A stretch of DNA of 64,000 nucleotides from an uncultured Oscillospiraceae bacterium (GTDB taxonomy: Bacteria > Bacillota > Clostridia > Oscillospirales > Oscillospiraceae): NCBI GenBank assembly GCA_944387035.1, contig CALXDJ010000004.1:1-64000 (forward strand), in the 5' to 3' direction. The position numbers were made by a program, and so were the translations under genes. Below, piece by piece: positions 40,641-51,145 of the stretch; position 1 is the first letter of the stretch; each line of letters opens with the position of its first letter. The notes under the pieces are model-generated. The model had not been told where the DNA came from. It saw only the letters and a program-made list of their open reading frames with translations, and searched no databases.

Positions 40641-40660
40641 TGCTTCTGTGAATGAAAACA

Positions 40661-40704
40661 ATGCCCTGCGGGCGTCGGATTTTCCGGCGCCCGCAGGGCA
40701 TTTC
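40661..40704 (+). terminator. Terminator after the P-type ATPase
   Basis: An 18-bp stem (40661-40678 with 40684-40701; one T-G pair) is followed by TTT. Very stable. Confidence 0.9.
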
Positions 40705-41139
40705 TGCATTGGGGAGGAACGCACACATGCAAAAGTTACATTTTTCTGCCTCGCATTCAATTGCAAATTCAATGTGTTACAGAAATGAATAATAAATTCA
40801 ATATAAATAAAAAAATAGGAAAAATATTGAATAAAATAGGCGAATTTGTAACGAAAAACCGGAAAGTGCCTTGCGGATTCAAGGAGCAAATGGTAGAATG
40901 AGTAAGATCATGTATATTGGTTTTGCAGACCTGAGCAGGGGCAGGCAGTTCAATCTGCCGGAGAAAGTGGGACAGCGGTTCATCTGTGCAGGCCGGTGTG
41001 AAGAATGCAAAGTGGCTGATCGTTGAGATATTTGGTAAGAGACCGTAAGGTCTGGCGGAATACCCCACGCCATTTTGGGAGAAGATGCCGCGTGGACTGA
41101 AGGAGCGGTACGCTTTGCAGGATAGCGGAGGTGAAGAGT
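40705..41139 (+). promoter_or_regulatory. Long AT-rich leader of the c-di-GMP operon
   Basis: The 435-base spacer is much richer in A/T (especially 40730-40860) than the rest of the window. It has three copies of ATTCAAT (40755, 40767, 40796) and one inverted copy ATTGAAT (40826), spaced 12, 29 and 30 bases apart. It also has two GTTAC (40735, 40776) and one GTAAC (40848). A promoter TTGCGG (40871-40876), 17 bases, TAGAAT (40894-40899) follows, giving a leader of about 235 bases. I did not find the conserved core of either c-di-GMP riboswitch class. Regulator binding at the repeats is inference. Confidence 0.55.
40898..41026 (+). CDS. Possible 42-residue leader peptide
   Basis: A short open frame (begins MSKIMYIGFADLSRG, ends with a CAGRCEECK cysteine cluster) upstream of the c-di-GMP operon. 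AAGGAG lies 11 bases before the first ATG. However, the predicted -10 box overlaps that ATG, so if the promoter is real, translation would have to begin at the second ATG (40910), which lacks a good ribosome binding site. Three Cys within eight residues could bind a metal. Evidence is weak. Confidence 0.25.
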   Translation: MSKIMYIGFADLSRGRQFNLPEKVGQRFICAGRCEECKVADR

Positions 41140-44100
41140 ATGCATCGCAACAGCCAAAAACTTCACATTTTCACAAAGATCTTTTTTGCATTCCTTTTTT
41201 TGGTAGTGGTCACGGTTTCTGTGCTGCTATTCAGGAACTCCCTCCAGATTCATAGCTTTATTGAGTGGCGGACATCTGTATATTTGACGGATGTGACATA
41301 TCAGATTGTGGATAAGGTGAATGGCCGGATTGAACAGTCTGTGCAGACGCTCCGGATGCTTCGGGACAGTGCGATCCTTTTTGAATCGCCCCAGGTGGAG
41401 TCGTTCCTGGAGCGGAAAAAGAGCTTTGCCGGTTATGATGATCTGCGTCTGTTTTCCACGCCTGAGGAGGCAAAAGCCTGGCTGGAGGAGGCCTATCCCG
41501 GCGTTTATATGGATACCGAAATGGCGCTGAAGGGAGAAACGCAGCTGCTGTTTGCACCGGATCAGGATGCCATGATTTACTGTGTATCTGACACATCGGA
41601 CGAGGATTTAGCCGTTATCATCGGAATTAAGACCCAGGAGACTCTGAAAAAGCTGCTCAATAATGAGTGCTTCAATGGGCAGGGTACCTCGTTTGCCGTT
41701 ACCCGGGATGGACAAGCCATTACAACACCGGGACGTATTGATCTGTATCAGGAACTGCGGAAACTGCAGACCGGACACACCAGCGATGAGGATATTGCAT
41801 TGCTGGAGCAGATGGAAGCGGATGCGCATGCCGGCAAGTCCGGCACGATGCTGTTTGAAGATATTGGAGCAAAAGGGGTCATGATTCGCTATGAACCCTT
41901 GGACTATTCCGGGTGGTATATCATCACCATCATTCCTGCCAACATCATCAGCATGGAAACGGAGTCGCTTTCAAATTACAATCTGTTCTTGACGGCCATT
42001 GTCATTTTCCTGTTGTTTATAAGCATGCTGGGGTTGACGATTAGTCATCAGAAGAATCAGAAAAAACTCTCTCAACTTGCATTTTGTGATGAGCTAACCG
42101 GAGGAATGAACGATACCAGTTTTCGCATGACGGCCCAACGCTACATGAAAGAGCAGGAAGGGCAGTATGTACTGGTGTCGATGGACATTCAGGACTTCAA
42201 GATGATCAACCAGGTGTACGGAACGCAGGAAGGAAACCGGACACTTCGGTATGTTTATCGAACGCTCCTCTCTCAGCTGCGGAGCGATGAACCCATGGCC
42301 CGCAATTGCGGTGATGTCTTTTTCTTCCTGCTTAAAAATCGGGATAAGACAACGATTTGCACCCGTCTGCTGAAGATTTATGAGGCGGTTAACAAATTTA
42401 ATCAGGAGCTGAAGGAACCGTATTATCTGGAATTGTACTTTGGAATTTATCAGCCGGAGAGCGGGGATGAAGCGCTTGCGGATATGCAGGAAAAGGCCAA
42501 TATTGCCCGCAAGCATAAGAAGGGCGATGACCGGTATCGCTACAATTTCTACGACGAAGAGGTCCAGAAGAGAAACATCCGGGAAAAAGAGCTGATGGGC
42601 ATGGTGGACTACTCACTGCGCAACGGCGATTTCCTGATTTATCTTCAGCCCAAGGTACAGCTGGAAAATAACCGCATTGCCGGTGCAGAGGCACTGATTC
42701 GCTGGAAGCATCCGGAATTGGGGATGCTCTCTCCGGCAATGTTCATTCCTTCGGCGGAGCGTTACCGTCTGATCAGTCAGCTGGATTTGTTTGTTTTTGA
42801 GGAAGTCTGCCGGACCCTGGCCCGCTGGAAAGCGGAAGGCAGGGAATTGCTGCCCATTTCCGTGAATTTGTCCCGACAGAATATGGATACTCCCAATTTC
42901 CTGGACGACTATCGAAAACTGTGCAAAAAGTACGATGTGAATCCCAATCTGATTGAATTTGAGCTGACTGAGACGATCTTGTTTGAAGATCCTCAGGGAA
43001 TCAAATGCTTTATTGATGAGATGCATGCATCCGGTTTCCAGTGTTCGCTGGATGATTTTGGTACAGGATTCTCTGCGCTGGGTCTGCTCAATGATCTCGA
43101 TGTGGATGCGATCAAGCTGGACCAGAGCTTTTTCCGTGGGAAAAACGACACCCGGCGGGGGCGGTATATTGTAGAAAGTATCCTGCGTCTGGCGGCACAG
43201 CTGCATATTCGAACGGTGGCGGAGGGCATTGATGAACTGCGCCAGGTGGAATATCTGCGCCAAGCAGCCTGTGATATGATTCAAGGCTTTTACTTCTTCA
43301 AACCCATGCCGGTTGAGGAGTTTGAGGCGGCAGCATATGAAGATCAACACCTCAGAACGCTGGCACCGCCGCAGCAAAATGCAGGCAGTGGAGAGAGCCA
43401 GGAGCTTTCTGCGGCATGGAATCCTTCCACAGAAAAAAATATCATTCTGTTTTCGTATTTCCTGGATGAGGACAAAGTGGTGTTTTCTGTTCCGTTTTCT
43501 CCCGTTTTGAAGAATCAAACTACCATTCAGAATGCTACGGCATTGTTCCGCTCGTCGGATCTCATTCACAAGAATGACCGTACGGATTTTTTCCGGGCGG
43601 TGGAGCGGTGCCGCAGAGAACGTGTCTGGGTGGAAAGCACTCTGCGCTTTTACCTGACCGATGGCCGGTATGAATGGCTGGAGACGCATCTGCACCTCCA
43701 TAAGAATACATATGCGGCTATGGGCGGCGAGACGATTACAGGCATCTTGGTGGATATGGCGGGCTGGAAGAGTGAACTCAACCGCTGGAAAGAAAAGGCC
43801 AATCGGGACGCGCTGACCGGGCTGTATAATCGGGAATTTTTTGAGCACTATGTTCGGCTTAAACTGCGCAGTGAGGAGCTGAACACAGCGGCGCTGATTT
43901 TCATCGATGTGGATGATTTTAAGCAGGCAAATGATAGGCTTGGCCATGCCTTTGGAGATGACATTCTTTGCTGCATGGCGAAGCGGATTTTGGGCGTTTT
44001 CCGTCAGACTGATATTGCTGCCCGGTATGGCGGTGATGAGTTTGTGGTGTTTGTACCTTCAGTGGGGCGGGAAATACTGGAGACCCGCTTGCAGCAGCTG

Positions 44101-44313
44101 TGTGAAGCGTTCCAGCAGCCGTACCGCAATGGGTCCCTGATTTATCAGATTTCCGGAAGCGTGGGTGCAGCCCTGTTCCCGGATGACGGCAAAGACTACA
44201 AAACACTGCTGGAACATGCGGATGAGGCGCTTTATGAGGCAAAAAACCGCGGAAAAGGCCGGTATATGCTTTATGGGCAGTTCCCGTATCCGAAAGAGAA
44301 TGGAGAGCAGTAA
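41140..44313 (+). CDS. Membrane sensor GGDEF-EAL-PAS-GGDEF protein (c-di-GMP turnover)
   Basis: 1,057 residues. A membrane segment (about 10-31), an extracytoplasmic sensor (about 32-280, Cache-like by layout) and a second membrane segment (281-302) come first. A degenerate GGDEF domain follows (310-467, CGDVF in place of GGDEF), then a complete EAL phosphodiesterase domain (488-730; EALIRW, NLSRQN, ELTET, DDFGTG, IKLD, QGFYF). A PAS-like domain (about 767-880) and a canonical GGDEF cyclase domain (887-1047, YGGDEF) end the protein. RQTD five residues before GGDEF is an intact inhibitory I-site. Both synthesis and breakdown of c-di-GMP are thus possible in one protein. The start is ATG 41140 behind GGAGGTG. 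First gene of a four-gene operon; the next starts 11 bases on. Confidence 0.92.
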   Translation: MHRNSQKLHIFTKIFFAFLFLVVVTVSVLLFRNSLQIHSFIEWRTSVYLTDVTYQIVDKVNGRIEQSVQTLRMLRDSAILFESPQVESFLERKKSFAGYDDLRLFSTPEEAKAWLEEAYPGVYMDTEMALKGETQLLFAPDQDAMIYCVSDTSDEDLAVIIGIKTQETLKKLLNNECFNGQGTSFAVTRDGQAITTPGRIDLYQELRKLQTGHTSDEDIALLEQMEADAHAGKSGTMLFEDIGAKGVMIRYEPLDYSGWYIITIIPANIISMETESLSNYNLFLTAIVIFLLFISMLGLTISHQKNQKKLSQLAFCDELTGGMNDTSFRMTAQRYMKEQEGQYVLVSMDIQDFKMINQVYGTQEGNRTLRYVYRTLLSQLRSDEPMARNCGDVFFFLLKNRDKTTICTRLLKIYEAVNKFNQELKEPYYLELYFGIYQPESGDEALADMQEKANIARKHKKGDDRYRYNFYDEEVQKRNIREKELMGMVDYSLRNGDFLIYLQPKVQLENNRIAGAEALIRWKHPELGMLSPAMFIPSAERYRLISQLDLFVFEEVCRTLARWKAEGRELLPISVNLSRQNMDTPNFLDDYRKLCKKYDVNPNLIEFELTETILFEDPQGIKCFIDEMHASGFQCSLDDFGTGFSALGLLNDLDVDAIKLDQSFFRGKNDTRRGRYIVESILRLAAQLHIRTVAEGIDELRQVEYLRQAACDMIQGFYFFKPMPVEEFEAAAYEDQHLRTLAPPQQNAGSGESQELSAAWNPSTEKNIILFSYFLDEDKVVFSVPFSPVLKNQTTIQNATALFRSSDLIHKNDRTDFFRAVERCRRERVWVESTLRFYLTDGRYEWLETHLHLHKNTYAAMGGETITGILVDMAGWKSELNRWKEKANRDALTGLYNREFFEHYVRLKLRSEELNTAALIFIDVDDFKQANDRLGHAFGDDILCCMAKRILGVFRQTDIAARYGGDEFVVFVPSVGREILETRLQQLCEAFQQPYRNGSLIYQISGSVGAALFPDDGKDYKTLLEHADEALYEAKNRGKGRYMLYGQFPYPKENGEQ

Positions 44314-44324
44314 GAGGAGAGAGT

Positions 44325-44915
44325 ATGTATTCTTTATTATTGGGGATGCTGGGCTTTTTGCTGTTTTTCTTATATGATGTCAACAGCTTTACTTGGCGTT
44401 CCCGGCTGCTTCACAAATCGTTTGCCCTTGGAGTGACGCTTCTGGCGGCGGCAACAGTGCTGGATCTGGCAGCAGCTTTGCGGATGGGGGCGTTTTCTGG
44501 ATTGAAAGATTTGATTCTGCTGGTCGCAGGGGCTCTTTGCTTGGCGGCTCTGGTATATTGCCTGTTTTTTGCGCTGCCCTTTGCAGAAACGTATCAAGAT
44601 ACAGACGGACCGCCTGCGGTATGTGACCGCGGTGTTTATGCGCTTTGCCGCCATCCTGGTGTACTGTGTATGCTTGGGATGTATCTGTTTTGGGGGTTGG
44701 GAGCACTGCCCGCAACCATGCTGCGCAATGGCCTGATTTTTTCGGGATTCAACACCGTGTATGTCTGCTTCCAGGACCGCATGACCTTTCCCAGGACCTT
44801 TCCGGACTATCCGGATTATCAAAAGAATGTTCCGTTCTTAATCCCGACCGGTGCAAGTATTCGGGCAGCATGGCGGACCAGACGCAGGTCTGCAGAAGAG
44901 GAGGGGAGCCCGTGA
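44325..44915 (+). CDS. ICMT/PEMT-like integral membrane protein
   Basis: 196 residues with four to five hydrophobic segments. The C-terminal half has the layout of isoprenylcysteine-carboxyl/phospholipid methyltransferases: GVYALCRHPGVLCMLGMYLF (compare the RHP motif) and then FPDYPDYQKNVPFLIP. The Arg-Glu-Glu that normally precedes the last motif is replaced by FQDRM, so methyltransferase activity is uncertain. It has a good ribosome binding site (GAGGAGAG) and overlaps the next gene by four bases (GTGA), so it is translated with the GH3 gene. Substrate unknown. Confidence 0.65.
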   Translation: MYSLLLGMLGFLLFFLYDVNSFTWRSRLLHKSFALGVTLLAAATVLDLAAALRMGAFSGLKDLILLVAGALCLAALVYCLFFALPFAETYQDTDGPPAVCDRGVYALCRHPGVLCMLGMYLFWGLGALPATMLRNGLIFSGFNTVYVCFQDRMTFPRTFPDYPDYQKNVPFLIPTGASIRAAWRTRRRSAEEEGSP

Positions 44916-46555
44916 GATTTCAGGAAAAACTTCGGAAGTATTCCAAAAAGGAACTTTGGGACGAGTATTGCGGTTTTCTGACACTCAAACCGGAAGAATT
45001 TATGCGCATTCAGCGCAGACTCCTGCAGGAGCAGATGGAGTTGTGGTCTTCCAGCGCGCTGGGGCAAAGCATCCTGAAGGGAAAGTATCCTCGTACCATT
45101 GAGGAGTTTCGTCAGATTGTGCCCTTGACGACCTATGATGACTATGCGCCGCTCCTGCTCTCCCGGCAATCCAAGTCCCTGCCGGCAGACCCCGTACTCT
45201 GGATCCAGACGACTTGGGAGGGCGGTGTGCATCCCCTGAAAGTGGCGCCTTATACCAAGGGAATGCTGGATACGTTCAAGCATAATGTGATTACCTGCTT
45301 GATGCTGGCGACCAGCCGGCAGAAAGAGGATTTTGACATCAATGTCACAGACCACATGCTCTATGCCCTGGCCCCGCTGCCCTATGCCACAGGCCTTTTG
45401 CCTCTGTTGTTTGCAGATGAGATCGATATTGAATTTTTGCCCCCGGTGAAAGAAGCCATGGACATGTCCTTTAAGGAGCGGAATATCCAGGGATTCAAGC
45501 TTGGAATGAAGAAGGGAATCGAGTACTTCTTTGGCTTGGGGAGTGTGCTCTACTATGTCAGTCAGGGGCTGACCTCCATGCAGGAGGGGGAGAGAAAGGG
45601 ACTGCTGGGAAAGCTGCGCAGTGTTTCTCCCACTACCATGGGACGGTATCTGGTGGCCAAACGCAAATGCCGGAAAGAACACCGGCCGCTGCTGCCCAAG
45701 GATCTGTTCCAACTGAAGTGCTTTATGTGCGCGGGGACGGATAACCGCTGCTATAAGGATGATTTGGAAAAGCTTTGGGGCATCCGTCCCATGGAGATTT
45801 TTGCCGGTACGGAACCGACCTGCATCGGATGTGAGACCTGGAGCCGGGAGGGTGTGTACTTTTTCCCCGACGCCTGTTTCTATGAGTTCATCCCGGAACG
45901 GGAGATGGAGAAGAACATGGCGGATCCGACGTATCAACCTTCTACGGTACTTTGGGACGAAGTGGTGGCCGGCGGTGTATACGAGATTGTGCTGACCGTT
46001 TTCAAAGGCGGCGCTTTTGCCCGTTACCGGGTGGGGGATGTATTCCGCTGCATCGGGATTGGCAGCAAGACCGAGGGAAACGAGATTCCGCGCTTCCAGT
46101 ACATCGATCGGGTGCCGCAGGTGATCGATATCGCCGGATTTACCCGCATTACAGAAAATTCCATCAATCAGGCCATCAAACTTTCCAGGCTACCCATCGA
46201 GAACTGGACAGCCAAAAAGGAGTTTACGCCGCAGAACCGGCCGTACATGCATCTGTACGTGGAAATGGAGCGCACCATGCTGACCACCAGCGCGGTCAGT
46301 CTGCAGGTTTTGCAGGAGCAGCTGGGTGTGTATTTCAAGTACATGGATCAGGATTATCAGGATCTCAAAAAGATCCTGGGAATTGATCCGCTGAAAATTA
46401 CACTGGTCAAATGTGGAACGTTTGCAGCTTACCGCAAAAAATTTGGCGCGGATATCCGAAAGATGAATCCGGAGAGCTGCGAGATCAACGATCTTCTGGA
46501 ATGCCATAGCCACGAGGGCATAGGAAGGAGGGGACAGATTTATGAGTGGGTATAG
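44912..46555 (+). CDS. GH3-family (acyl-adenylate-forming) protein
   Basis: 547 residues resembling GH3 acyl-acid amido synthetases, adenylating enzymes that couple carboxylic acids to amines or amino acids. The C-terminal nucleotide motif FARYRVGDVFRC and the FAGTEPT segment (compare the family's G-x-S/T-E) are clear. The N-terminal Ser/Thr-Gly-rich ATP loop is divergent: QTTWEGGVHPLKVAPYT keeps the Lys but not the usual SSGTT. Activity may therefore be altered. There are no membrane segments. The start is GTG 44912 behind AGGAGGGG, overlapping the upstream stop; its end overlaps the next gene by 14 bases. It is tightly coupled with two c-di-GMP enzymes. The product is unknown. Confidence 0.78.
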   Translation: MRFQEKLRKYSKKELWDEYCGFLTLKPEEFMRIQRRLLQEQMELWSSSALGQSILKGKYPRTIEEFRQIVPLTTYDDYAPLLLSRQSKSLPADPVLWIQTTWEGGVHPLKVAPYTKGMLDTFKHNVITCLMLATSRQKEDFDINVTDHMLYALAPLPYATGLLPLLFADEIDIEFLPPVKEAMDMSFKERNIQGFKLGMKKGIEYFFGLGSVLYYVSQGLTSMQEGERKGLLGKLRSVSPTTMGRYLVAKRKCRKEHRPLLPKDLFQLKCFMCAGTDNRCYKDDLEKLWGIRPMEIFAGTEPTCIGCETWSREGVYFFPDACFYEFIPEREMEKNMADPTYQPSTVLWDEVVAGGVYEIVLTVFKGGAFARYRVGDVFRCIGIGSKTEGNEIPRFQYIDRVPQVIDIAGFTRITENSINQAIKLSRLPIENWTAKKEFTPQNRPYMHLYVEMERTMLTTSAVSLQVLQEQLGVYFKYMDQDYQDLKKILGIDPLKITLVKCGTFAAYRKKFGADIRKMNPESCEINDLLECHSHEGIGRRGQIYEWV

Positions 46556-49097
46556 CTGGATTTCTGTTATTTCGCTCTTTTGCTATCTGTTCCTGTTTAT
46601 GACGTTCCTGGCGGTGAAAAAAGAACAAAAGGTCATCTATACCTTCATGGCACTGCTGGTGGTGCTGATCCTTTGGAGCGGCGGTTCTTTCGCCATGCGG
46701 ACACAGCTCTGGCCATCGGTGAACTTTTGGCACTATGTTTCGGTGTGCGGCATCATGCTGCTGCCGGTGATGTTTTATCATTTTACACTGGATTTCCTGG
46801 AGGAGAAGCGAGGCCACGGCCGTGTAATCTGGCTGTTGGTGTTTGTGGGAATGCTGGTGTTCAACCAGTTTACCAATTTGCTGATCCCGACGCCCCAGGT
46901 CGTGGCACAAAATGGACATCTGGAGTTCATTTACGAATACGGGTGGCAGGTTTACATCGTCTTCGCCATGGCCATTTTGTGCATGGGGCAGATGATCTTC
47001 CTGATTTACCGGCACAGCAAGGGGGATCCGGTGGTATTTCATCAGCTCCTGCCGATTATCCTGGGCGTTGTGGCGCTGATTGCCGGTCACGCATTGGCCA
47101 CGCTCCCGGTCTTTTTGGGATTCCCGTTGGATATCCTGTCCGGTGTGATCAATGCCTGCCTGCTGTTTTACGCGCTGTATCAAAAACGGCTGTTCCAGAT
47201 GACCATGCTGATCTCCCGGCCCAACTGCTTCATTATGGCGCTGATTGCCGGCGTGGTGATATCGTACCGCTTTGTATTGCCGCTGCAGGCATTTTTGACT
47301 CAGAAGGTCGGCTTGCAGCATACGCACGCCATGATCCTCATGGCTATGGCGCTGATGATGGTGATTGGGCTGCTGTATCTGCTGATTGCGTCGTTTTTCA
47401 ACACACTCTTTGTGCGCAGCGGACAGCAGCAAAGCGAACTGATGGCTGCATTCAGCCAGGAGATTACCCGCCTTCTGCTGGTGGGTGACATTTTGCAAAA
47501 GCTTTCCGATGTCATTCAGGAGGCGGTGGGCTCCCAGAGAATTTTTGTGCTGATCCGCAGCGGTGAAATGTATAAAATCGTCTATACTGCCAGCCCGCTG
47601 GAGGAGAAAAATTTTACGTTCTCTCAGGACCATCCGCTGGTTACTTATTTTAAGGAGCATACTGGCTGCATCTTATATCGGGAATTTGCCAGAACAACGG
47701 TCTACCGGGGAATGTGGGAGAGCGAAAAGCAGCTGTTCGCCGCATTGGAGCTGGAGTGCTTCTGTCCTCTGGTGTGTGAAAATGAACTGCTGGGCCTGAT
47801 GCTGTTGTCAAAAAAGAAAAATCATGTGGCGTATCACGTTGGTGATTTGAATTTTTTGCAGTCCATTTCCACGATTTGTGCCATTGCCCTGAAAAATTCG
47901 TGCTTGTATGAAAAGGCATTGGATGAGGCCCGGCGGGATGAGTTGACGGGGCTGATCAGCCGAAAATACTTCTATGAGCTGCTGGATCAGGAGTTTGACA
48001 AAGCGGGGAACTCCGCCCTATCCTTGTGTGTGCTCAATATTGATGACTTTAAGCTTTATAACCAGTTGTATGGAACGAACGAGGGAGATCTGGCTCTCAA
48101 GCGGGTGGGCGAAATCCTGGCTGCCAGTGTTGGGGAAAATGGGTATGCTTCCCGGATTAACGGCAAGGAGTTTGCACTGATTTTGCCGGGATATGACACC
48201 TATTCCGCCAAAATGCTCTCGGAGAATATTGCCCGGCAGATCGGGGACATCAACAGCCGGGAAAATCGGATCGGCAGCCGGCTGACCGTGAGCATCGGCA
48301 TTTGTGCTGCACCATATATGGCATCCAATGCCCGGGAATTGCTCAAAAATGCAGATGCAGCCGTATATAGTGTGAAACGCTCGGGGAAAAACGGCATTCT
48401 GATGTACTCGGAAGAAAGTTATGGACAGGCCATGGAGCGGACACGGCACCAGAGCGGGTACAATGAGCATGCCAGCACGATTTATGCCCTGACGGCCGCC
48501 ATTGATACCAAAGATCATTATACCTTCCAGCACTCACAGAATGTGGCGTACTACGCCGTTGAACTGGCCAAGGCAGCCGGATTGGATGCGTCTCTGGTGG
48601 AGATTGCCAAAGAGGCGGCTTTGCTCCACGATATTGGCAAGATTGGCGTTCGGGAGGATATCCTCAACAAAACCGGCAGCCTGACGCCGGAGGAGTATGA
48701 AATCATGAAATCCCATGTGGATAACGCAGCCAATATCATCCGCTATCTGCCGTCACTGGATTATGTGATTCCAGGGGTCCTTTCTCATCATGAGCGGTAT
48801 GACGGACGGGGCTACCCCAGAAAGTTGGCTGGGGAGGAGATCCCGGTAATCGGCCGGATTTTGTGCGTGGCGGATGCGTTTGATGCGATGACATCTTTCC
48901 GCGCCTATAAAAAGCCGGTTCCCGTGGAACGGGCGGTAGAGATCTTAAAAGAGGAGTCTGGGCAACAATTTGATCCCAATTTGGCGGGGATTTTCATTCA
49001 GCTGGTAGAAGACGGAAAAATCGAACTGCAGGCTAAGACAGCCGCCGAAATTTTTTCCAATAACCAGACAAATTCTGAGGGAGTTTATACTGCTTGA
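46542..49097 (+). CDS. 7TM-GAF-GGDEF-HD-GYP membrane phosphodiesterase
   Basis: 851 residues. Seven to eight hydrophobic segments (about 5-285) form an N-terminal 7TM receptor-like module of the histidine-kinase type. A GAF-like domain follows (about 310-440), then a GGDEF domain whose signature is degenerate (INGKEF, about 538-543). The C-terminal HD-GYP domain (about 640-830) has HDIGKIGV and HHERYDGRGYP, the catalytic marks of a c-di-GMP (or cGAMP) phosphodiesterase. The degenerate GGDEF probably serves as a GTP or c-di-GMP sensor. The ribosome binding site is GGAAGGAGGGG. Last gene of the operon; a palindromic terminator follows. Confidence 0.9.
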   Translation: MSGYSWISVISLFCYLFLFMTFLAVKKEQKVIYTFMALLVVLILWSGGSFAMRTQLWPSVNFWHYVSVCGIMLLPVMFYHFTLDFLEEKRGHGRVIWLLVFVGMLVFNQFTNLLIPTPQVVAQNGHLEFIYEYGWQVYIVFAMAILCMGQMIFLIYRHSKGDPVVFHQLLPIILGVVALIAGHALATLPVFLGFPLDILSGVINACLLFYALYQKRLFQMTMLISRPNCFIMALIAGVVISYRFVLPLQAFLTQKVGLQHTHAMILMAMALMMVIGLLYLLIASFFNTLFVRSGQQQSELMAAFSQEITRLLLVGDILQKLSDVIQEAVGSQRIFVLIRSGEMYKIVYTASPLEEKNFTFSQDHPLVTYFKEHTGCILYREFARTTVYRGMWESEKQLFAALELECFCPLVCENELLGLMLLSKKKNHVAYHVGDLNFLQSISTICAIALKNSCLYEKALDEARRDELTGLISRKYFYELLDQEFDKAGNSALSLCVLNIDDFKLYNQLYGTNEGDLALKRVGEILAASVGENGYASRINGKEFALILPGYDTYSAKMLSENIARQIGDINSRENRIGSRLTVSIGICAAPYMASNARELLKNADAAVYSVKRSGKNGILMYSEESYGQAMERTRHQSGYNEHASTIYALTAAIDTKDHYTFQHSQNVAYYAVELAKAAGLDASLVEIAKEAALLHDIGKIGVREDILNKTGSLTPEEYEIMKSHVDNAANIIRYLPSLDYVIPGVLSHHERYDGRGYPRKLAGEEIPVIGRILCVADAFDAMTSFRAYKKPVPVERAVEILKEESGQQFDPNLAGIFIQLVEDGKIELQAKTAAEIFSNNQTNSEGVYTA

Positions 49098-49116
49098 GTT
49101 CCATATCATGTGGACG

Positions 49117-49146
49117 AAAATCCGCCGGCAGCTGCCGGCGGATTTT
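49117..49146 (+). terminator. Terminator of the c-di-GMP operon
   Basis: A perfect 30-base inverted repeat: 49117-49131 is the reverse complement of 49132-49146, beginning AAAATCCGCCGG and ending in TTTT; the loop forms within CAGCTG. Confidence 0.9.
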
Positions 49147-49235
49147 TCTGTAATGAGCAAAAAAAGGTAGCATTCGCCGGAAAATGAGGGTATCATAGTT
49201 TCATTGCTGTGAGTCTGTGGAAAGTGAGGGCAACG

Positions 49236-50005: not shown

Positions 50006-51145
50006 ATGAACGAAAAGGAAATCTCGGAACTGCGGCGGCGCTTTCGGGCAGATAAAAGCAACATTGCCCGGGTGTGCGGATGCTGTGTGAATGAAAAACG
50101 GGAGATCATCTCCCGCTTCGACCAGTCTCTGGCTCTCATGGGGCAGGAGGATGCCGGGCGGGTGCAGGGACTTTTGCGCAAGTCCCTCAGCGGTACCCTG
50201 GACCGGAATTTGGTGGATATCCCGTTTGAGACGTCACAAGTGGCTGGCGGAGAGGAGCACGGGCTGCTCATGACACTGCGCAGTTCCCAGCTGCGGGACG
50301 AGCAGGCGCTGGATACTTTTTTTCAGAGAGCAGCCCAGAGTTTGGAACTGGAGGGAAACTATCTGATCCTCCTGGCCTTTGATGCATATGATGTGCCGTA
50401 TCGCTCCCGGGATGGGCTGAAACAGGAGGATGCCTCCGAGGAGGTGTTTTCCTACATCGTATGCAGTGTCTGTCCGGTGAAGCTGACCCGGGAAACCCTG
50501 GGATTTTCCGCAGATGAAAACCGCCTGTGTACGTTGGCGGCCGATTGGGCGGTTGCAGCACCGGAAACGGGATTCCTGTTTCCGGCTTTTGACGGACGGA
50601 GCACCAATTTGTACAATGCCTTGCTTTACACCAAGGATACTGCCCGCAGCCAGGAGGGATTTGTCAAAGCGGTATTTGGGACACCGGCACCGATGCCTGC
50701 CCAGGAGCAGATGGAGACCTTCCACACCATTTTGGCAGATACGCTTTCCGATGCGTGCAGTTATGAGGTGGTCCATGCCGTCCACGACCAGCTCCGGGGA
50801 TTGATGGAGGAACACAAGGCGGCCCATGTGGAGGAGCCGCTGACCGTAACGGGACAGTCGGTGGGCCAGGTGCTCTCGGCCTGCGGCGTGGAGCCCCAGC
50901 AAGTGGAGGCCTTTGAGCGCCAGTGTGATGCGGCTTACGGCACCGGTGCGGATCTGAGTCCCCGGAATCTGGTGGACCCCAAGCAGCTGGAGCTGCGGAC
51001 GCCGGATGTGACCATCCGGGTCAGTCCGGACCGGGGAGATCTGGTGGAGACCCGGATCATCAATGGCGCGCGGTACATCCTGATCCGGGCGGAAGAAGGC
51101 GTGGAAGTCAACGGCGTCCAGGTCCGCATCCGGGACGAGCAGTGA
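50006..51145 (+). CDS. DUF4317 family protein
   Basis: 379 residues. I recognise the family from the N-terminal block MNEKEISELRRRF..RVCGCCV, the LEGNYLILLAFDAYDVPYRS segment and ETGFLFPAFDGRSTN. Function is unknown; it is a soluble protein without signal peptide or membrane segments, widespread in Clostridia. The ribosome binding site AGGAGG is ideal. The glycosyltransferase-MarR fusion gene begins 16 bases downstream, so the two are probably co-transcribed, possibly with the upstream Crp-family gene. Confidence 0.85.
   Translation: MNEKEISELRRRFRADKSNIARVCGCCVNEKREIISRFDQSLALMGQEDAGRVQGLLRKSLSGTLDRNLVDIPFETSQVAGGEEHGLLMTLRSSQLRDEQALDTFFQRAAQSLELEGNYLILLAFDAYDVPYRSRDGLKQEDASEEVFSYIVCSVCPVKLTRETLGFSADENRLCTLAADWAVAAPETGFLFPAFDGRSTNLYNALLYTKDTARSQEGFVKAVFGTPAPMPAQEQMETFHTILADTLSDACSYEVVHAVHDQLRGLMEEHKAAHVEEPLTVTGQSVGQVLSACGVEPQQVEAFERQCDAAYGTGADLSPRNLVDPKQLELRTPDVTIRVSPDRGDLVETRIINGARYILIRAEEGVEVNGVQVRIRDEQ

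Follow-up and report, generated by a model that had tools for sequence, protein, structure and literature searches.

A conserved gene trio for ICMT-like, GH3-like and 7TM-GAF-GGDEF-HD-GYP proteins in gut and other Bacillota looks like an undescribed chemical signalling system

Introduction

Why should genes for two putative enzymes of acid and lipid chemistry be packed tightly between genes for the turnover of cyclic dimeric guanosine monophosphate (c-di-GMP)? The question is raised by four open reading frames (ORFs) in contig CALXDJ010000004.1 of an uncultured Oscillospiraceae bacterium (assembly GCA_944387035.1), of which positions 1 to 64,000 of the forward strand, hereafter the window, were analyzed; the genome comprises ~2.26 Mb in 67 contigs. 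An earlier note, made from the sequence alone, had described an operon coding for a sensor-GGDEF-EAL-PAS-GGDEF protein (gene 1), an ICMT-like membrane protein (gene 2), a GH3-family protein (gene 3) and a protein of the order seven-transmembrane (7TM) domain-GAF-GGDEF-HD-GYP (gene 4), and had suggested that all four form one system with c-di-GMP as its input or output. The four ORFs, the junctions between them (an 11-base gap between gene 1 and the ICMT-like gene, a 4-base overlap between the ICMT-like and GH3-like genes and a 14-base overlap between the GH3-like and HD-GYP genes), the long leader and the strong palindromic terminator were all confirmed in the sequence (Table 1). The conserved core is a set of three genes (ICMT-like, GH3-like and 7TM-GAF-GGDEF-HD-GYP), not four. 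This trio is carried by some anaerobes, of which several come from animal guts, and has the appearance of an undescribed system of chemical signalling; no published description of an ICMT-GH3-HD-GYP cassette was found in the open-licence papers searched.

Results

Neighborhoods were read at 46 loci, 20 from a contig scan, which covered the whole collection and finds close relatives only, and 26 from profile searches, which were confined to one phylum and amounted to 1,847 genome visits, some genomes being searched repeatedly. The phylum was taken as Bacillota, and the relatives found by the scan include Oscillospiraceae, Clostridia, Eubacteriaceae, and others. Oscillibacter valericigenes An860 and, with the trio, Neglectibacter timonensis SN17 are among the carriers. 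A same-strand homologue of the 7TM-HD-GYP gene lies directly 3' of the GH3-like gene in 46/46 loci (in L015 it is cut by the contig end), and an ICMT-like gene lies 5' of the GH3-like gene in all 43 loci whose contig reaches that far, the contigs of L022, L120, and L121 beginning inside the GH3-like gene. In genome G1081 the ICMT-like gene was located on another contig, beside the missing end of the GH3-like gene. Counted by genome, the HD-GYP neighbor is present in 29 of the 29 genomes with the GH3-like subfamily and the ICMT-like neighbor in 28, with the second contig of G259 outside the count. The junctions within the trio are mostly short gaps or overlaps, often of -4 or -14 bases. When 28 ordinary GH3 loci with ~1.5 kb of flank were taken as a control, none had a homologue of the ICMT-like, HD-GYP or gene 1 protein at E 1e-3, whereas both partners were found at 26/26 subfamily loci given the same flank. 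The expectation of the earlier note that GH3 and ICMT-like genes stay beside a c-di-GMP gene in relatives was therefore strongly borne out.

The subfamily was recovered from five of 60 genomes searched, the window's own included (5/37 of the genus and 0/23 other members of the order), and, by profile, from 8/394 genomes of the order, 7/391 of the class and 13/398 of the phylum, again with the own genome included each time. The best piece in each of these genomes scores at least 287 bits, against at most 62 bits for the remaining matches, which are ordinary GH3 proteins. A profile of the sensor, that is the 7TM-GAF part (residues 1-455), gave full-length matches of at least 180 bits in 14/398 genomes, namely the 13 GH3-subfamily genomes and G1158, which carries a solo protein; the next matches were G925 (156 bits) and G847, G1154, and G845 (91-98 bits), with the rest at 52 bits or below. 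An ICMT-like profile run against 80 selected genomes of the 398 gave at least 132 bits in exactly the 13 cassette genomes and at most 38 bits elsewhere, but both profiles had been built in part from sequences of several of the 13 genomes that they found, so that the agreement is partly by construction, while the empty result elsewhere is not. Pairwise distances between loci correlate among the three proteins (r 0.93 for GH3/HD-GYP, and 0.87 and 0.83), the largest value in 200 label shuffles being 0.29. This is what is expected of genes inherited together, and the cassette thus travels as a unit. Linkage of the trio is strict across many families of the phylum while the flanks change, and among the clusters listed no other neighbor keeps a fixed position in more than three loci.

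Judged by its distribution, the quartet is a lineage-specific extension of the trio, since gene 1 is confined to close loci and its N-terminal part is variable. It lies upstream of the trio in 13 of the 14 close loci having upstream sequence (absent in L013), and in none of the 29 more distant ones is it immediately upstream; of these, L100 has a weaker GGDEF/EAL homologue ~2.9 kb upstream. The long N-terminal part is found in the window, L007, L011, and L026; eight relatives, of 770-812 residues, do without it, and two more are cut by the contig. The proposal of a conserved four-gene system thus stands for the trio and not for gene 1, which belongs to one lineage. Of the domains proposed for gene 1, Pfam places the EAL and two GGDEF, whereas the matches to PAS (E 0.001) and, for the sensor, to dCache (E 0.006) fall below cut-off, and the first GGDEF is degenerate in the window (CGDVF), with the EAL and second GGDEF motifs kept. 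In 14/14 sequences the last GGDEF is intact with its RxxD site, the first being variable, and the DDFG motif of the EAL domain is kept in only 4/12.

The third core protein, gene 4, matches HisKA_7TM, GGDEF, and HD_5 over cut-off in Pfam, and its HDxGK and HHExxDGxGYP motifs are intact in 11 of the 13 sequences listed, the window included, and altered in L115. The architecture given in the earlier note was upheld in these respects, with two reservations, as the GAF_3 match is below cut-off and the GGDEF motif of the window reads NGKEF. This motif is degenerate in 8/13 of the sequences listed, and GGDEF or GGEEF in the other five (L104, L112-L115). The receptor homologue at L114:9588-11567 (G823) has an intact GGDEF but no HD-GYP part; it resembles a cyclase joined to the same sensor, and the sign of its output is predicted to be reversed. 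Because this homologue has lost HD-GYP yet keeps GGDEF, the constant part is the 7TM-GAF sensor together with some c-di-GMP enzyme, and not one c-di-GMP activity, which fits a receptor with a c-di-GMP output of either sign. The HD-GYP gene at L103:9578-12114 (G518) is broken into two ORFs, through a real lesion or an assembly error.

In the GH3-like protein, the GH3 N and M domains are over the Pfam cut-off and the C domain is just below it, and a profile comparison of the subfamily with ordinary GH3 proteins gave 99.9% (E 1.3e-33). The AlphaFold model (predicted local distance difference test score, pLDDT, 78; predicted template modeling score, pTM, 0.80; low confidence at residues 101-108 and 154-160) was matched by Foldseek to the putative acyl-CoA ligase BT_0428, plant GH3 enzymes, and PaaK. 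Motifs 2 (GTE; T300-E301) and 3 (YRxGD; R371-Y372-R373-G375-D376) are invariant where present in a 47-sequence alignment. The protein therefore resembles the plant GH3 acyl acid amido synthetases in profile, fold and these two motifs, and differs from them in that identity is 15-17% in structural alignments and motif 1 is rewritten. Fold and motifs 2 and 3 support a putative role as an adenylating ligase.

For the ICMT-like protein of the window, Pfam returned no relevant match, and a search of solved structures with the family profile returned a chance match only. Among 20 aligned members, five match PEMT (best 1.5e-5) and six match ICMT (best 0.007), with E values up to 1. The structure model (pLDDT 86) is all helical, as in membrane proteins, and Ma-ICMT (4a2n) is its best fold match, with a probability of 0.94, a weak E of 0.22 and a template modeling (TM) score of 0.49. 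Conserved in the family are RHPG and a C-terminal Y..Y....P...P. The tentative likeness to ICMT/PEMT methyltransferases lies in a predicted helical fold, the RHP motif and the C-terminal Y..Y....P; the window protein itself differs from these enzymes in that it has no significant sequence match and that none of the proteins of the unit offers a CaaX-like substrate.

Outside the cassette, seven loci with sensor-like genes were also examined, their neighbors being partly named by eye. At L122:6741-9284 (G1158) there is a solo 7TM-GAF-GGDEF-HD-GYP protein, with 982 bits to the family profile and no adjoining ICMT-like or GH3 genes, that is like a receptor eavesdropping on the signals of others. 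Four loci, L124-L127 (G847, G1154, G845, G1093), encode HisKA_7TM-GAF-PAS histidine kinases whose sensor is distantly related to that of the window. A beta-ketoacyl synthase lies ahead of the kinase in 4/4 of these clusters and a UbiE-like methyltransferase in 3/4; downstream are a second GAF-PAS kinase, checked by Pfam in three clusters, and an HD-GYP response regulator, also checked in three, with L124 showing only its start before the contig end. With a 7TM-GAF sensor, an acyl-chain enzyme, usually a methyltransferase, and an HD-GYP output, these clusters resemble what is predicted for the cassette, and they differ from it in using a two-component phosphorelay and different enzymes. That predicted acyl chemistry and methylation come together twice with a 7TM-GAF sensor and HD-GYP, each time with different parts, gives circumstantial support for a synthase-receptor relationship. 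The kinase-like sensor ORF of G925 is broken by a stop.

In the own genome there is one c-di-GMP-I riboswitch (G000:C1:605-688, minus strand; L129, L130), scoring 70.5 bits against a gathering score of 35. It lies 32 bases 5' of a gene for a signal-peptide-bearing, proline-rich protein that runs off the contig, with a PilT-like ATPase gene nearby (both genes as named by our own reading). This riboswitch, ahead of a surface-protein-like gene, is a possible output of the cassette in this genome.

Within the locus, a purine-rich ribosome-binding-like site precedes each of the four genes. The start of gene 1 is taken as the ATG at 41140, which is preceded by GGAGGTG, the mechanical ORF start being a GTG at 41131; the GH3-like gene also starts with GTG. 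The hairpin at the 3' end has a 14-bp stem and a 4-base loop, and none of 200 shuffles was equally stable. Between 44200 and 49260 there are nine terminator-like sites (5.3 in shuffles, standard deviation (sd) 2.3) and six promoter-like sites (4.6, sd 2.0). A single transcript is the likely prediction for the unit, and no more than likely since the internal terminator-like sites are slightly above chance.

The leader contains no sigma-70 consensus (chance expectation 0.8), and a search of it against Rfam gave nothing above threshold. The idea that the leader holds a known RNA, such as a c-di-GMP riboswitch, was rejected, as the only matches were three sub-threshold ones to microRNA models. A long GC-rich inverted repeat (40662-40703), 3' of the P-type ATPase gene and near the start of the leader, is probably the terminator of that gene. 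On the other side, positions 50006-51145 encode a DUF4317 protein (430 bits), with homologues in 30 of 41 genomes of the genus at E 1e-60. Comparison of the insertion site within the genus gave no clean empty site, the ATPase and crp homologues being adjacent in the own genome only; in G032 the homologues of crp and DUF4317 lie next to each other, with that of the ATPase on a separate contig. A defence system was rejected as well, PADLOC giving no more than weak matches of the HD domain to Cas3-HD.

Table 1. Features of the four-gene locus, in positions of the window.
Feature	Position	Strand	Basis or remark
Leader	40641..41139	+	499 bases from upstream P-type ATPase stop to gene 1
Gene 1, membrane sensor (weak dCache)-degenerate GGDEF-EAL-weak PAS-intact GGDEF with RxxD site	41140..44313	+	Pfam, motifs
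Gene 2, ICMT/PEMT-superfamily-like membrane protein (core gene 1)	44325..44915	+	Conserved motifs, fold match
Gene 3, divergent GH3-like (ANL fold) putative ligase (core gene 2)	44912..46555	+	Pfam, fold, profile match
Gene 4, 7TM-GAF-degenerate GGDEF-HD-GYP protein (core gene 3)	46542..49097	+	Pfam, conserved HD-GYP residues
Palindromic terminator-like hairpin, 3' end of unit	49116..49147	+	Fold z = -4.9

Discussion

The explanation that we tentatively prefer, while giving it a little less than an even chance, is that the core is a dedicated cassette for making and sensing a signal, in which the enzymes make a lipophilic, acid-derived molecule, the 7TM sensor detects it and c-di-GMP changes. 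The GH3-like enzyme would activate a carboxylic acid, probably fatty or aryl, with ATP and join it to an amine or amino acid, and the ICMT-like membrane enzyme would methylate this product to give the lipophilic molecule. The HisKA_7TM-GAF part would then sense the methylated product, and the HD-GYP domain, the motifs of which are present, would hydrolyze c-di-GMP in response. In the Oscillospiraceae lineage of the window, a protein with an intact diguanylate cyclase domain has been added upstream, so that the unit may be able to synthesize c-di-GMP as well as degrade it. A further step, that the cassette represents a new class of bacterial communication, with a methylated acyl conjugate as an autoinducer made by a GH3-type ligase and an ICMT-type methyltransferase, read by a 7TM receptor fused to c-di-GMP enzymes and spread through gut and other Bacillota, is more doubtful, though arguable.

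By analogy, the closest system in logic is RpfF/RpfR. In the part of the source available, Burkholderia diffusible signal factor (BDSF), which is made by RpfF, stimulates c-di-GMP hydrolysis when bound by RpfR, and RpfG uses an HD-GYP domain (PMC4698668). RpfF/RpfR and, likewise, RpfF/RpfC/RpfG pair an enzyme gene with a receptor that changes c-di-GMP, to the extent that this source describes them; the same linkage is found in the cassette, the enzymes of which would act as the synthase. RpfF is, however, an enoyl-CoA hydratase and RpfR senses by PAS, while the cassette combines GH3-like and ICMT-like proteins with a 7TM-GAF sensor fused to HD-GYP, and Pfam found neither an RpfF-type enoyl-CoA hydratase nor a PAS-GGDEF-EAL receptor in the trio. 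With parts that are unrelated to RpfF/RpfR, the cassette may work in a comparable way but is not a member of that pair. For the enzymes, a precedent in favor of the proposed cassette is the GH3-like OlsH, which makes N-acyl-ornithine and is encoded next to a methyltransferase gene (PMC12493201).

Beyond the partly built-in agreement of the profiles, several points weigh against a cassette that makes and senses its own signal. Gene order, co-occurrence, co-inheritance, folds and motifs are observed, and it is from these that we infer the product, ligand, chemistry and direction of signalling. The 7TM domain is without any known ligand, and c-di-GMP could be an input to the unit, although an output of the sensor is favored. 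No synthase or methyltransferase was recognized beside G925, the strongest non-cassette sensor after the solo protein, or beside G941. The ICMT-like protein is provisionally placed by weak profile and fold matches only, and the second fold match of its model is a steroid reductase of the same superfamily (probability 0.60, weak E). Methyl transfer nevertheless seems more likely than reductase activity, because the RHP motif is present and relatives match PEMT and ICMT. Finally, motif 1 of the GH3-like protein, the phosphate loop, reads TTWEGG in 14 of the 21 sequences listed, against SSGTS or TSGTT in other enzymes, and TTWESG or TTWKGG in three more, so adenylation may be altered or lost and the use of ATP by this protein stays putative. 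TSGK or TSGR was found in only the four sequences of a deep branch (L112-L115). Compared with SSGTSxGxxK, T100 and K110 of this region are invariant. Our expectation is an adenylating enzyme that is altered but active.

If the chemistry is real, its product may instead stay in the cell envelope, the enzymes making an aminolipid or methylated lipid of structural function while the GGDEF-HD-GYP protein tunes c-di-GMP to time the synthesis. We regard this as unlikely, though it deserves serious attention. Its precedent is OlsH, a bacterial GH3-like enzyme that makes N-acyl-ornithine, a membrane aminolipid precursor, and whose gene adjoins a methyltransferase gene in the planctomycete OlsH/OlsG/OlsI ornithine-lipid operon, according to the available part of the source (PMC12493201). 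The all-helical model of the ICMT-like protein is also as would be expected of a membrane protein. The two operons are alike in placing a GH3-like enzyme with a methyltransferase gene, but OlsG is an N-methyltransferase for ornithine lipid, OlsI is an acyltransferase, and the same part of the source mentions no c-di-GMP gene and reports almost 90% of OlsH homologues from Bacteroidota (PMC12493201). An OlsI-type alpha/beta-hydrolase acyltransferase was not detected among the four genes (Pfam), and the clusters listed include no acyltransferase as a recurrent neighbor of the cassette. In OlsH, motif 1 reads TSGTTQGATK, in contrast to the TTWEGG of the cassette protein; S115 of OlsH, which in our alignment faces T101 of the GH3-like protein (a serine in the deep branch), abolishes activity when changed to alanine, as that part of the paper reports (PMC12493201). 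Timing of lipid synthesis by c-di-GMP further fits poorly with Pfam matching no c-di-GMP receptor domain on either enzyme and with the lack of any PilZ match in the own genome, and it is the sensor that is the constant piece, the type of c-di-GMP enzyme being switched in L114.

It is improbable that the cassette serves detoxification or salvage, with the 7TM-GAF sensor detecting a dietary or host acid that the enzymes then conjugate and methylate. Plant GH3 enzymes do conjugate hormone acids, as stated in the available part of the source (PMC12493201), and the cecum, rectum or omasum is named for 7/20 scan loci. Against this, neither a transporter nor a catabolic gene recurs in a fixed position nearby, the ABC-transporter-like genes near the cassette in seven loci differing in their position; a sensor also exists solo, without the enzymes, and it would be unusual for detoxification to be routed via c-di-GMP.

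Eukaryotic ICMT methylates the C-termini of proteins, and together with the tight one-to-one linkage to the 7TM protein this raises the idea that the two enzymes act by modifying a membrane-located protein, be it the HD-GYP protein or another. The prospect is slim, as the HD-GYP protein also occurs solo, without the enzymes; CaaX methylation of the operon's own proteins was rejected, there being no conserved CaaX-like C-terminus among the four. The chance is slimmer still that the GH3-like protein has lost catalysis and serves for regulation or binding, the cassette then working without new acid chemistry. The rewritten motif 1 and the two segments of low model confidence would agree with a dead enzyme, but motifs 2 (TE) and 3 (RYRxGD) are invariant wherever present, and the strict company of a methyltransferase-like protein suggests chemistry. 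That the genes are neighbors without a shared function is hardly credible and in practice refuted by conservation, the slight excess of internal terminator-like sites being set against strict linkage across many families, changing flanks and 0/28 in the control.

Should the cassette prove to make and sense its own signal, gut anaerobes would gain an intercellular signal whose synthesis relies on an enzyme family known chiefly for conjugating plant hormones, and the ligand of a HisKA_7TM sensor could be sought by way of the enzymes that accompany it. A lipid amide that acts on the host is a conceivable product. The compact size of the cassette makes it accessible to tests in E. coli or B. subtilis, and even if its chemistry differs from that proposed, three subfamilies that stay together across many families would constitute an unstudied c-di-GMP module.

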